Assembly (NCBI GenBank): GCA_902538565.1
Contig: CACBFQ010000001.1
Coordinates: 62,001-126,000 of the forward strand
From: an uncultured Fidelibacterota bacterium
Lineage (GTDB): Bacteria > Fidelibacterota > Marinisomatia > Marinisomatales > Marinisomataceae
Length of the DNA: 64,000 nt
Direction of reading: 5' to 3'
The notes below the pieces were generated by a model. That model ran no database searches and was not told the origin of the DNA. It worked only from the letters and a program-made list of their open reading frames with translations. A program made the position numbers and the translations under genes. Shown here piece after piece: positions 27,632 to 51,678 of this stretch (position 1 is its first letter; each line of letters begins with the position of its first letter).

Positions 27632-27760
27632 TTATTCTGCTGGAGGTTCTTCGGCTTCTTCTGCAGGTGCTTTATCAGCTGGTGCTTCTTCTGCTGGAGT
27701 TTCTTCGGCTTCTTCTGCAGGTGCTTCTTCTGCAGGTGCTTTCTCAGCTTTTACTTTTTC
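27458..27760 (-). repeat. rpsP: Ala/Glu/Pro-rich tandem repeats at the rpsP 3-prime end
   Basis: Degenerate in-frame repeats encode short units built from P-A-E-E-A, P-V-E-E-A-E-E and P-A-D-K-A. The DNA alternates TCTTCTGC/AGG-type blocks. Low complexity here creates long open frames on the plus strand that are not genes. It is a likely hotspot for slippage and assembly error. Confidence 0.85.
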
Positions 27761-28129
27761 TTTTTTAGCTTCATTAGCCTTAATTCTATCTTGGATTACT
27801 TTATCTCTTTCTTTTTTCCATTCTTCAACAGCTTTATCTATTTCTTTTTCTGACAAACCCTGCTTCATTAAATGCCATCTGTATGATAATCCTGATCTTT
27901 TCATTAATTTGTTTACAGGATCTGTAACTTGTGCTCCAAGCTTCAACCATTCAAGAATTTTATCTTCTTTTAAGGCATAATTTTTCTCTTTATTGCTTTC
28001 AATTGGATTATACCAACCTACTTGCTCTATTGCAGAACCGTCTCTTCTTTTTCGCGAATCAATAATAATAATTCTATAAAAAGGTCTATTCCTACGACCA
28101 ATTCTTTTAAGTCTAATTTTTGTTGCCAT
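27632..28129 (-). CDS. rpsP: 30S ribosomal protein S16 with acidic repeat tail
   Basis: Assembly protein of the 30S subunit. Residues 1-85 are a normal S16 (ATKIRLKRIGRRNRPFYRIIIIDSRKRRDG, then VGWYNPIES and WLKLGAQVTDPV). After a basic helix (EWKKERDKVIQDRIKANEAKK) comes an A/E/P repeat tail, so the product is 165 residues rather than 80-90. Acidic or alanine-rich S16 extensions are known from Bacteroidetes-type genomes. The tail ends at an in-frame TAA inside the repeat, while the frame continues to 27455. It is the first gene of the rpsP-trmD-rplS cluster; rimM is missing. Confidence 0.95.
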   Translation of the reverse strand: MATKIRLKRIGRRNRPFYRIIIIDSRKRRDGSAIEQVGWYNPIESNKEKNYALKEDKILEWLKLGAQVTDPVNKLMKRSGLSYRWHLMKQGLSEKEIDKAVEEWKKERDKVIQDRIKANEAKKEKVKAEKAPAEEAPAEEAEETPAEEAPADKAPAEEAEEPPAE

Positions 28130-28212: not shown

Positions 28213-30276
28213 TTATGAAAAATCAATGGACATAAGTTTTGAAATTCCTTGTTTTTCAGCTGTTACACCATAAATGCAATCTGCTGATTCCATTGTCAAT
28301 TTATTATGAGTTACCATAATAAATTGGGTAGTTTTACTGTAATCTTTTATAACATCAGTAAACTTTTTGATATTTATATCATCAAGAGGTGCATCTATTT
28401 CATCCAATATACAAAATGGGCTTGGCTTGAATTGATAAATAGAAAACAGTAATGCAATTGCAGTTAAGGACTTTTCCCCGGCAGATAACATCTTAAGTGA
28501 GTTATTTCTTTTTCCAGGAGGCTGAGCAAAAATATTTATATCTGAATTTAAGGGATCATTTGGATCAGATAATTCAATTGTACCCTTACCTCCATTGAAA
28601 AAAACTGTAAACATCTTCTCAAAATTTTCTTCTACCTGATTATATGTATCTAAAAACTGTTCTTCAGCTACAATATCAATTTTTTTAATAGCTTCTTTTA
28701 AATTATTTTCTGCATCAATCAAATCAGACCTTTGCTGCAAAAGATTATTCAGTCTTTCAGTTTTTTCTTCATGTTCATCTTTGACCGCCCAATTAATTGG
28801 ACCAATAGAATCTATACTTCTTTTAATTTTTTCTACTCTAAAAACCATATCAGAAATGTTGTATTCTTTCAAATCACTCAAAACAAAATCATTTCCAAAT
28901 TTTTCAGAAATATTCTGCTCAATTTGAGTTTTTTTAATTTTTGATTCTGCAATTTTCATTTCAGCTTCTTTGATTTCATAAAAAAGATCATCTTTGCTAA
29001 ATTTTTCTGAATCGAGCTTTGCTCTTATTGACTCCATCTTAATAAAAGCTTTATTTACTTCATTTTCTTTGTTTTCAAGCTCAAGATTATTTGAATTAAT
29101 TTGATCTTGAATCTTTTTTATTGATGCATCCATTTTAGAAAAATCAAATTCTTTTTCTTTTTTATATTCATCTATTTTGTCTCTGTAATCTTCAATACTA
29201 GCCTTAAGCTTTTCATACTTCTTGTCTGTTTCAATTATGTTTTTTCCACATTCATTACATTCAGAAACAATTTTAAGGTAATCTGTGTCAAAGTGATTAA
29301 GTTGTTTAATCTTCTTTTGAAGCTCATCCTCAAGTAATCCAACACCTTTGGATGATTCTTGATTTTTTTCTTGAATTTCTAAAAGTAGCTTTTCTGTGAG
29401 CTTATCAACCTCTGCTTTCATTTTTGAAAGCGACTCTTTCTCATTTAAATATTTATCTCTTGCATTATCAAATTCGACGGTTTCAATCTCTTTTTTTGAA
29501 GTATTTTTTTGCAAAAGATTATTCTTCTTTTTTAACATCTTTTCTAAAGGGCGAATTATATTATTTAAATCATTAATCCTTGCTGAAGCTAAATCTAATT
29601 CTAATTCTTTTAATTCATTTGTTAGCTTCTCATGCCTTTTAAACCTTTTTAATTGTAAATCTAATGCCTTTACTTGTATTTCAATCTCAACAATTATATC
29701 ATCAATTCTCTCTAAATCTCTTGAATTTAAATCGAACTTTTTCATAGCAGATCTTCTTTTAGCTTTGTACTTATTTACTCCAGCAGCTTCTTCGAACATT
29801 TGCCTTCTACTATCATCTTTATCAGACAATATTTGTTCTATCATATTTAATTCAATTACAGAGTATGCATCTGAGGTTAATCCTGTATCAACAAAAAGAT
29901 TGGAAATATCTTTTAATCTACAATTGTTTCTATTTATAAAATATTCGCTTTCACCAGATCTATATAATCTTCTTCCAATTTCAACTTCTGAGTATTCAAC
30001 AGGTAGCAATCCTTTATTATTTTCAATTGTTAAATAAACCTCACATAGACCTAAAGGATTTACATTGGAAGCACCATTAAAAATCACGTCTTCCATTTTT
30101 GAACTTCTTAATCTTTTAGTCTTTTGCTCACCTAAAACCCATCTGATTGCATCTACAATATTTGTTTTACCGCAACCATTAGGACCGACTATTCCTGTGA
30201 TTCCAGAATTGAAAAGAACAGTTTCTTTTTTTGCAAAAGACTTAAAACCAAAAATTTCTAATTTTGAAATATGCAT
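28213..30276 (-). CDS. smc: miniature SMC ATPase lacking a hinge, with central CxxC
   Basis: Chromosome-organising ABC-type ATPase. Heads are canonical SMC: HISKLEIFGFKSFAKKE, Walker A GPNGCGKTN (31-39), MEDVIFNGASN, QMFEEAAGVNKYKAKRR (about 157-173), the SIGPINWAV segment (about 488-497), signature LSAGEKSLTA (about 595-604) and Walker B CILDEIDAPLDD (about 620). The whole protein is 687 residues against about 1150-1200 normally. No glycine-rich hinge domain is visible; each coiled-coil arm is about 170-190 residues, half of normal. At the exact middle lies ECNECGKNIIE, with C340 and C343, resembling a Rad50 zinc hook. No frameshift is seen. The gene is flanked by rpsP and a HIT gene. Confidence 0.9.
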   Translation of the reverse strand: MHISKLEIFGFKSFAKKETVLFNSGITGIVGPNGCGKTNIVDAIRWVLGEQKTKRLRSSKMEDVIFNGASNVNPLGLCEVYLTIENNKGLLPVEYSEVEIGRRLYRSGESEYFINRNNCRLKDISNLFVDTGLTSDAYSVIELNMIEQILSDKDDSRRQMFEEAAGVNKYKAKRRSAMKKFDLNSRDLERIDDIIVEIEIQVKALDLQLKRFKRHEKLTNELKELELDLASARINDLNNIIRPLEKMLKKKNNLLQKNTSKKEIETVEFDNARDKYLNEKESLSKMKAEVDKLTEKLLLEIQEKNQESSKGVGLLEDELQKKIKQLNHFDTDYLKIVSECNECGKNIIETDKKYEKLKASIEDYRDKIDEYKKEKEFDFSKMDASIKKIQDQINSNNLELENKENEVNKAFIKMESIRAKLDSEKFSKDDLFYEIKEAEMKIAESKIKKTQIEQNISEKFGNDFVLSDLKEYNISDMVFRVEKIKRSIDSIGPINWAVKDEHEEKTERLNNLLQQRSDLIDAENNLKEAIKKIDIVAEEQFLDTYNQVEENFEKMFTVFFNGGKGTIELSDPNDPLNSDINIFAQPPGKRNNSLKMLSAGEKSLTAIALLFSIYQFKPSPFCILDEIDAPLDDINIKKFTDVIKDYSKTTQFIMVTHNKLTMESADCIYGVTAEKQGISKLMSIDFS

Positions 30277-49464: not shown

Positions 49465-51678
49465 TTAGAAACTATATGTTAATGACATTCCAATTTCTCT
49501 TGGAGGGCCAAAAGATGTATATAGTTTTTCAGAGTATTGTGGTGGCTCTAATCCAAAAATAAAACCTCGATCAGTATATGACTCATCTAGAATATTTTTA
49601 GCATAAAATCCTAATTTTACCTTATCAAATGTTTGAGAATAGTATGCATTCAATAAATGATATGGTTCTGACTCGTACTCATCATGCATTGAATCAAAAA
49701 CAAAAGCATCCTTACCAGCAATTTCTACCATTAATGAACCATCTTCTGTGAAATTGTAGTTAAAAGTTAAGCTATAATTCCAATTTGGAGCATGAGCTTT
49801 TTTTCCATGCTCAGCATGTCCTTCATTTTCATCGTGGTCATCATGATCTTCATCGTGATCTTCATCATGATCTTCATCGTGATCTTCATCATGATCATCT
49901 TCACCGTGCTCATCGCCATGCTCAGCATGGTCCCCGAATTCAATTTCACCACTCAACAAGCCAAGTGATAATCCCATTGAGAATCTATCATTAAGTTTGA
50001 ATTCACCGCTTGTTTCAGATCCATACTCATATCCTGAATCAGCATTTTGTTTAAAAAATGCAAAAGCATTTGGATTTAATGGATCTAACTGCTCTGAAGT
50101 CTCAAAAATGTGACCATCATGTTCTAAATAAAACAATGAAGTTGATAACTTAATGTTATCTGTATACCATCTAATACCTGTCGTCACATCAATGTAGATT
50201 TCATCATCATAAGTTTTATCTTCCATATCTAAGTAAGGATTCTGATTTACACCAGCTGGATGATAACCTTCAGCAGCGTATATATACCAATGAAGATTAC
50301 TTGTTGGATGCATCTCATAGGCAATTTTATATGATGTGTTCCAATCTCCATCAAGTTCAAAGGAAGCGCTTGGATTATCAAAATCGAAATAATCAATATC
50401 TCTTGCCTCATGCCTAAATCCAACTGATAAAGTTGAACTATTTTCAAAATTGTATGCTAGTTCTCCATACAATGATTTTGATACGATATCATAACCAGTA
50501 GATAGTCCAGTTGCAGATCCTCCGAAAACATATCCGGCTGCATCTGTTGTTTCCTCATAGTTTGAGTTATAAATACCAAAAACATAATCAACTTTATTAT
50601 TATTTTCGACATTAGATCTGAATCGTAAATCCACTGTTCTTGTGTCAATCTCTCTATCAAATGAATCAAAAAAGTCGTATTGATAACCCTCTACGTCTGG
50701 ATTAAAGTTATAAGGCTCATCAAACCAAAAACTATAATTTCCCCAGTCTGAATCATAGCTGTGTAATGTTTCATTGCTGGACATCCCAACATTTAAGTCA
50801 ACAATTTGCTCACCTAAATCATATTTGTAATCAGCAATAAAGATTTGTGACTTTTGACTATCTTTTCCTGGATTATCGGAATAAGTAATGTTATCAGTAT
50901 TATTATCTGGTGCCCAATTATCATATCCATTATCAAAGTCAGAACTGATTATGGTATATTTTTGAGAAATTAAATCACCTTTTTTGAGTATTTTTACTCT
51001 CAAAGATGTTTCATTTCTATCAGCAGATGCATAATTACCTAATGCAACATTTTCTTTAAAACCATCTGAAACATTTGAATGTCCAACTAGTCTTACTTTC
51101 CATCCATTTTCGAATGGTAAATTATAGACTAGACCATTGGTGTAGGTATTATATGAACCAAACTGAGTCATAACATAGCCACCTTTTTCGTCCGTGGGAT
51201 CGTTAGTTTTAAAATTAATTAAACCTGATGAAGCTGAGGCTCCAAACAAGCTTGTTTGAACACCCATTAAAACTTCAACTTGTTGCATATCAAATAATGG
51301 TGTAATCATTCCTAGTTCAGAAATATCCATTCCATCTAGAACCAAACCAACATATGGACTTGGTGGTCCTTGGTCCGCATATCTACTTACTGAACCTTCC
51401 CCTCTAATTTGAAAAAATCTTGGCCTTGAAGTACCACCAGCATAATTTAAATTAGGAACTCTGTAAAGAAGATCACTAAAGTGTTGTCCTTGCATGAATT
51501 CTAATTCATCATTAAAGATAATAGCAGAAGCTGCTAAATCACCCTCATTGACTTGTCTTAAAGATGAATATACTTCAACACCTTCAAGTTCAATTGGGTT
51601 CAATGAGTCTGATTCGGTTACAACGTTTTGTGCAAATAATGAACTTATTAATATTATTAAACTAAAATTGTTTTTCAT
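49465..51678 (-). CDS. TonB-dependent receptor with His/Asp-rich segment, candidate metal receptor
   Basis: 737-residue outer-membrane receptor: signal peptide to about residue 16, plug domain (SLRQVNEGDLAASAIIF, LLYRVPNLNYAGG, RPRFFQIRGEG), then a barrel of alternating strands ending in an aromatic SLTYSF. A His/Asp/Glu-rich segment at about residues 584-630 contains four DEDH units (597-612). His/Asp-rich loops occur in zinc receptors such as ZnuD, so zinc or another divalent metal is a reasonable but unproven ligand. AGGAGA (51683-51688) is the ribosome-binding site. The His-rich small protein upstream probably belongs to the same unit. Confidence 0.85.
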   Translation of the reverse strand: MKNNFSLIILISSLFAQNVVTESDSLNPIELEGVEVYSSLRQVNEGDLAASAIIFNDELEFMQGQHFSDLLYRVPNLNYAGGTSRPRFFQIRGEGSVSRYADQGPPSPYVGLVLDGMDISELGMITPLFDMQQVEVLMGVQTSLFGASASSGLINFKTNDPTDEKGGYVMTQFGSYNTYTNGLVYNLPFENGWKVRLVGHSNVSDGFKENVALGNYASADRNETSLRVKILKKGDLISQKYTIISSDFDNGYDNWAPDNNTDNITYSDNPGKDSQKSQIFIADYKYDLGEQIVDLNVGMSSNETLHSYDSDWGNYSFWFDEPYNFNPDVEGYQYDFFDSFDREIDTRTVDLRFRSNVENNNKVDYVFGIYNSNYEETTDAAGYVFGGSATGLSTGYDIVSKSLYGELAYNFENSSTLSVGFRHEARDIDYFDFDNPSASFELDGDWNTSYKIAYEMHPTSNLHWYIYAAEGYHPAGVNQNPYLDMEDKTYDDEIYIDVTTGIRWYTDNIKLSTSLFYLEHDGHIFETSEQLDPLNPNAFAFFKQNADSGYEYGSETSGEFKLNDRFSMGLSLGLLSGEIEFGDHAEHGDEHGEDDHDEDHDEDHDEDHDEDHDDHDENEGHAEHGKKAHAPNWNYSLTFNYNFTEDGSLMVEIAGKDAFVFDSMHDEYESEPYHLLNAYYSQTFDKVKLGFYAKNILDESYTDRGFIFGLEPPQYSEKLYTSFGPPREIGMSLTYSF
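49843..49890 (-). repeat. four 12-bp tandem units encoding DEDH in the TonB receptor
   Basis: Four adjacent 12-bp units (GATGAAGATCAY on the coding strand) alternate by one silent base, so the true period may be 24 bp twice. They encode DEDH four times within a larger His/Asp segment. The alternation suggests duplication of a 24-bp block; it is a likely site of copy-number variation. Confidence 0.85.

Follow-up and report, generated by a model that had tools for sequence, protein, structure and literature searches.

Can a bacterial SMC protein do without its hinge, and what would then hold its two protomers together? The question is raised by a gene in the window (the whole 64,000-nucleotide stretch of Marinimicrobia DNA analysed here) whose product has the heads of an SMC and, where the hinge would be, a tip of nine residues with a pair of cysteines. 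The features of the gene that are needed below are as follows.

28213..30276, minus strand: the smc gene, encoding a hinge-less SMC ATPase of 687 amino acids (from the ORF and family profiles)
30160..30186, minus strand: Walker A motif GPNGCGKTN, residues 31-39 (from sequence)
28393..28488, minus strand: signature LSAGEKS to Walker B FCILDEID, residues 597-628 (from sequence)
28792..28803, minus strand: GPIN, residues 492-495, used as an arm-length landmark (from sequence)
29128..29355, minus strand: apical stretch, residues 308-383, with helices 310-339 and 346-374 flanking the tip; proposed dimer interface (from sequence, AlphaFold2 and conservation)
29236..29262, minus strand: tip ECNECGKNI, in which C340 and C343 form the one CxxC of the window species; variable in the genus (from sequence)

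The sequence-only reading of this ORF held that its SMC heads are complete, and Walker A, signature, Walker B and GPIN are all found, together with the EEAAGVNKYK segment. It also placed the CxxC at the midpoint, residue 344, and C340 and C343 indeed lie just N-terminal of it, at the apex. The absence of the hinge is borne out as well. A Pfam scan of the protein (E 0.001) finds neither a hinge domain nor a zinc-hook family, and the hinge profile PF06470, which matches in 10 of 14 control genomes, has no match across the whole 969,495-base, 96%-complete genome. The hinge is likewise unmatched in all 24 genomes of the window's family at E 0.001, which speaks against a separate hinge protein, whereas in the other families of the order it matches in 31 of 37 genomes. 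A second, full-length smc was looked for in the window genome and not found. The other four SMC_N matches there are weak; the best of them, L003, reads as an ABC transporter, and the remaining three are in frames of 222-238 residues. The 687-residue ORF is thereby confirmed as the sole SMC found in the genome, with complete heads, an absent hinge and half-length arms.

Two other ORFs of the window, both on the minus strand and both identified by reading, have unusual repetitive segments. A ribosomal protein S16-like ORF (27632-28129) has a C-terminal tail of about 40 residues that is repetitive and rich in Ala, Glu and Pro, and a TonB-receptor-like ORF (49465-51678) contains a run of His-Asp/Glu repeats that is possibly metal-binding.

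The genus was sampled as the genomes of 24 species and is the sole genus sampled for its Marinimicrobia family. Merging of copies reduces 29 rows to 22 distinct proteins, with the broken copy of G001 and L052 (a partial sequence, seemingly of L022's gene) excluded. At 58-98% identity to the window protein, the arms of these proteins contain no gap cell. The N arm, from EEAAG to the end of the N helix, has 176 residues in 22 of 22 rows, and the C arm, from the start of the C helix to GPIN, has 144 in all 22 (its gaps were counted over 21 rows, with L055_L029 left out and the landmarks of that row counted separately). In full-length relatives 357-359 residues separate the same landmark from the start of the hinge (23 rows, retained after omission of those without a hinge match or landmarks), so that the arms are halved and nearly equal, as had been proposed. 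The part that was lost would amount to about 490 residues: the hinge together with the distal half of each arm.

While the arms are fixed, the tip is not. It is 9, 23 or 29 residues long in the genus, and it has one CxxC in six of the distinct proteins, two in seven and no cysteine in nine; a tip CxxC is therefore present in 13 of 22. On the best tree, which was built without the tip columns, these three states need a minimum of five changes. Windowed nucleotide and synonymous identity showed no clean tract of the kind expected from recent exchange of tips by recombination, so that these identities do not distinguish repeated tip change from recombination long ago. The spacing of the four-cysteine tips is one that we take to be like that of zinc ribbons. 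Zn_ribbon_6 matches one of the two four-cysteine proteins scanned (E 0.046, under its cut-off), and no zinc-ribbon family matches the other. The window-type ECNECGKN is similar to the second knuckle of four-cysteine tips (for example SECNHCGK in L025) and may be half of a ribbon.

Several observations agree with the proposal that the tip is a true Rad50-type zinc hook, that is, an essential dimer module in which one CxxC per protomer is joined to the other by zinc. The CxxC is at the apex, and in a second hinge-less lineage, described below, 18 of the 21 residues around the CxxC are identical between L084 and L132, proteins that are 76% identical overall. Furthermore, B. subtilis Smc carrying the Pyrococcus furiosus Rad50 hook is described in an excerpt of Buermann et al. 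(PMC5344682) as growing normally on rich medium. That a hook could take the place of the hinge, as the sequence-only reading supposed, is plausible on this ground, although later work found chromosome-folding defects in hinge-substituted B. subtilis Smc (PMC12647877, in excerpt). The extension of the idea to zinc coordination as a general dimerisation device is not supported: nine of 22 genus tips are free of cysteine, seven carry two CxxC, and the states need at least five changes on the best tree. The Cys pair is thus not conserved in close relatives, an outcome that the sequence-only reading had itself named as a refutation. In addition, no zinc-hook family is found in the window protein (E 0.001) or in three relatives (E 1). 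A zinc hook universal to the genus is ruled out by the cysteine-free and four-cysteine tips, and zinc is not needed in the genus since cysteine-free tips exist. An essential zinc hook is therefore an unlikely account of the apex.

Alternatively, the tips might never dimerise at all, and the heads would meet through ATP and ScpAB only, as in RecF-like ATPases. The variable sequence and length of the tip fit this proposal, as does the loss of the large dimerisation domain, but the stretch around the tip is conserved over the 22 rows. Conservation is 0.71-0.81 directly before the tip and 0.78 after it, and falls to 0.53-0.62 in the N arm below the apex (residues 226-285); the contrast on the C side is weaker, with arm blocks at 0.55 to 0.74, some of which (0.73-0.74) equal the apex. 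Arms held at an exact length also speak against free tips, as does the engineered core of Wadjet, in which opening of the ring abolished activity (PMC12647877, in excerpt). Tips that never meet are improbable on this evidence.

In the AlphaFold2 model of the window SMC, helices at 310-339 and 346-374 are bounded by breaks at 307-309 and 375-383, with a pLDDT of 53-70 over this apical stretch. Confidence is low for the model as a whole (64.2) and for the tip, and the N-terminal head is modelled poorly. A model of a four-cysteine relative again has the C-side break but not the N-side one, and its tip is a loop that lacks structure and has very low confidence. A separate apical hairpin is suggested, not settled, by these models. 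The origin of the apex in a relic of arm or hinge found no support. Among the loci analysed, an HMM of residues 285-390 retrieves only the genus's own proteins, with everything else, full-length and second-lineage SMCs included, at 2.9 bits or less, and the best PDB match to residues 293-398 has an E of 0.083.

With its Rad50-like overall shape, the protein might instead have left condensin work and act in repair like Rad50/SbcC, and no other long-coil SMC-type ATPase is listed in the genome. Its profile scores point the other way. The protein passes the equivalog cut-off of the NCBIfam model SMC_prok_B (TIGR02168) with 717.5 bits against 567.35, while the best Rad50 model gives 51.1 bits against a cut-off of 700 and the model for archaeal SMC-related proteins, or ASRPs (NF045487), gives 73.5 bits against 300. 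The partners of SMC are also retained. ScpA and ScpB, for which the sequence-only reading had advised a search, are each matched in 21 of 24 genus genomes, including all eight with a completeness of 90% or more (G002 has a partial ScpB), and scpA adjoins scpB in G000. A move to repair is consequently very improbable.

Of the 24 genus genomes, 23 have the short SMC, as 20 whole frames, two that reach a contig end (G010, G018) and one that is broken (G001, a 64%-complete draft); it was not found in G022, which is 72% complete. Most named records that contain the short protein are labelled Candidatus Marinimicrobia or Neomarinimicrobiota, and the AG-426-E20 and AH-736-N04 records, whose titles have no MAG label, also carry it. 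Names of this kind presumably denote single-cell genomes. The two are not counted as extra genomes because they encode the same proteins as G017 and G011. Outside the genus, among the matches listed in 130 genomes, frames that match both ends of the query have about 1,170-1,200 residues; shorter ones in the same set match one part of the query only and are taken as cut or broken. The 11 pairs tested have whole-gene dN/dS values of 0.037-0.146, by which measure the short smc is under purifying selection. A misassembly or decaying pseudogene, for which the draft state of the genomes and the one broken copy might speak, can be discounted in view of the 20 whole frames, the named records and the low dN/dS, and the recurrence of hinge absence across the genus argues likewise against a hinge region collapsed in assembly.

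The window SMC branches inside the full-length Marinimicrobia SMCs in an SMC tree from which eight full-length rows without the GPxN pattern were left out, and which held neither actinobacterial SMCs nor the sequences of Sussfeld et al. (2025). Judged from this placement, the window-type SMC is derived and not an intermediate between SMC and Rad50; the sequence-only reading had entertained such an intermediate, and the Rad50 scores far under their cut-offs speak against it too.

The second hinge-less lineage belongs to the same class and to a different order. It consists of L084 (isolate EAC25; G174) and L132 (G175), both of 867 residues. No hinge was found in the G174 and G175 genomes or in the L084 protein. 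ScpA is matched in G174 and was not found in G175, which is 80% complete. The CxxC is at 428-431, close to the midpoint of 434. From tip cysteine to landmarks the second lineage has 266 and 238 residues versus 178 and 149 in the window protein, so that its arms are longer by 88 and 89 residues per side. Buermann et al. reported that arm function in B. subtilis has a period of 91 residues, with natural arm-length modes of 238, 341 and 515 residues and possible minor ones of 163 and 423 (PMC5344682, in excerpt), and the difference of 88-89 residues lies near this period, although the arm landmarks used here differ from theirs; two natural points would agree with a period and do not prove one. 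The two hinge-less lineages stand apart in the SMC tree, each among full-length Marinimicrobia SMCs, and two changes are needed. An AU test does not reject a single clade of both (p 0.163). Two separate hinge losses rather than one origin are nevertheless favoured, since the arm lengths differ, the apices have no detectable likeness and full-length relatives lie on both sides.

Family f16 shows a further pattern. The second-lineage SMC is unmatched in its genera g40, g41, g44 and g46, in two of three g42 genomes and in G173 of g47 (at most three candidates were scored per genome), and neither hinge nor ScpA was found in the same genomes. G159-G163, G165, G166, G168, G172 and G173, which are of about 1.1-1.7 Mb and of which five are at least 90% complete, give no match to the second-lineage SMC, the hinge or ScpA. 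This suggests that those genomes, several of them incomplete or somewhat contaminated, lost the whole condensin. G164 has a hinge match (L154, G164:C2:22527-22880; E 1.5e-28) in a 1,002-residue frame, with ScpA unmatched and a second-lineage SMC match of only E 4.5e-23, and L154 is possibly a foreign or contaminating SMC. In G169-G171 (g45, in the family of the second hinge-less genus) the hinge matches with E 4.5e-9 to 1.3e-10, far weaker than most in the window's order, and it is possibly decaying.

The reading that we prefer, and hold to be somewhat probable, is that the protein serves as SMC subunit in a functioning SMC-ScpAB, a natural core-only condensin whose apex conserved helices would close, with help from zinc in some species. 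It builds on what the genes themselves record, namely intact heads, hinge loss, retention of ScpA and ScpB, purifying selection, fixed arms, a variable tip and placement within Marinimicrobia. The helices that flank the tip (about residues 308-383) would join the two protomers at the apex. Where a species has a single CxxC, as that of the window does, one zinc would be bound jointly by the two motifs of the dimer, as happens in Rad50; where it has two, each tip could bind a zinc of its own in ribbon-like fashion; and in cysteine-free species the helices alone would be enough. The complex would load on and extrude DNA as a core-only SMC. Without a hinge channel, large obstacles tethered by single-stranded nucleic acid should be impassable.

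This core-only condensin is proposed because exchanges of hook and hinge work, in B. subtilis Smc as described above and, with a hinge in place of the hook, in Rad50 (PMC6969161, in excerpt), and because an engineered Wadjet core has a like plan: with nine residues and a disulfide in place of the elbow-to-hinge segment, it retained cleavage of plasmid DNA and no longer bypassed obstacles (PMC12647877, in excerpt). Arm length counts against it. The arm-resizing screen in B. subtilis spanned 6-60 nm, and an arm near 165 residues has no engineered precedent there since the shortest functional arm had 253-267 residues, as reported in an excerpt of PMC5344682. SMCs without a hinge channel tend to longer arms, which are thought to aid by threading (PMC12647877, in excerpt), and this tendency, together with the folding defects of hinge-substituted B. 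subtilis Smc, also weighs against the core-only reading. So do the low AlphaFold2 confidence, the apical hairpin that the second model did not reproduce and the C-side arm blocks that appear as conserved as the apex.

The protein resembles several known systems in part. With the bacterial SMC of SMC-ScpAB it has in common the heads, the GPIN segment and the partners ScpA and ScpB; it differs in the absence of the hinge, in size (687 versus about 1,170-1,200 amino acids) and in arms about half as long. Sussfeld and coworkers described hinge-less SMCs in a marine clade that they assigned to Actinobacteria; in the excerpted text these have no CxxC and are reported as never accompanied by a regular SMC (PMC12153180). 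Both cases concern ocean bacteria with an SMC that lacks a hinge and no regular SMC beside it. The Sussfeld SMC branches with Actinobacteria and is without CxxC, whereas the protein described here is from Marinimicrobia and has a tip CxxC in the window species and in 13 of 22 genus proteins; ScpAB, fixed arms and a second lineage are features of the Marinimicrobia case. Rad50/SbcC shares the CxxC at the coil apex and the absence of a hinge, but the window SMC scores low on Rad50 models, its CxxC is unconserved in the genus and its genome has ScpA and ScpB. The ASRPs (coalescin, Sph) are also SMC-like ATPases, with a zinc hook in most members (PMC9389158, in excerpt), but they are an archaeal family distinct from SMC. 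The engineered core-only Wadjet, ecJET, has a nine-residue replacement where the window tip has nine residues; it is a defence SMC closed by a disulfide. Among the literature matches listed, which cover few subscription journals, no paper describes a hinge-less SMC from Marinimicrobia or a bacterial SMC with a natural zinc tip.

A broader proposition is more tentative, and we would put its chances somewhat below even. Two Marinimicrobia lineages may have separately trimmed SMC to its motor core, with arms shortened by whole multiples of about 90 residues and the ring closed by a new small apical module. The zinc chemistry of one lineage would switch among a four-cysteine ribbon, half-ribbons paired across the dimer like Rad50 and no metal, and in the other the zinc hook would be fixed. 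There would thus be natural condensins without the hinge and the obstacle-bypass channel.

These ocean bacteria with tiny genomes seem to organise their chromosomes with a cut-down ring protein, and nature thus provides a way to examine what role the missing domain has. Engineering work indicates that it makes little difference to growth which fold the dimerisation domain has (PMC5344682) and that obstacle bypass, not extrusion, is the function of the ring's outer half (PMC12647877). Evolution appears to have done a similar experiment, in which the outer half was lost, the arm length was kept exact and the tip was left free. The small proteins are a ready set with which to ask whether a hinge is needed, what the minimum arm length is and whether the tip is closed by zinc, by helices or by both. 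The arms fall below the lengths reported as functional in B. subtilis, so that either outcome would be informative.
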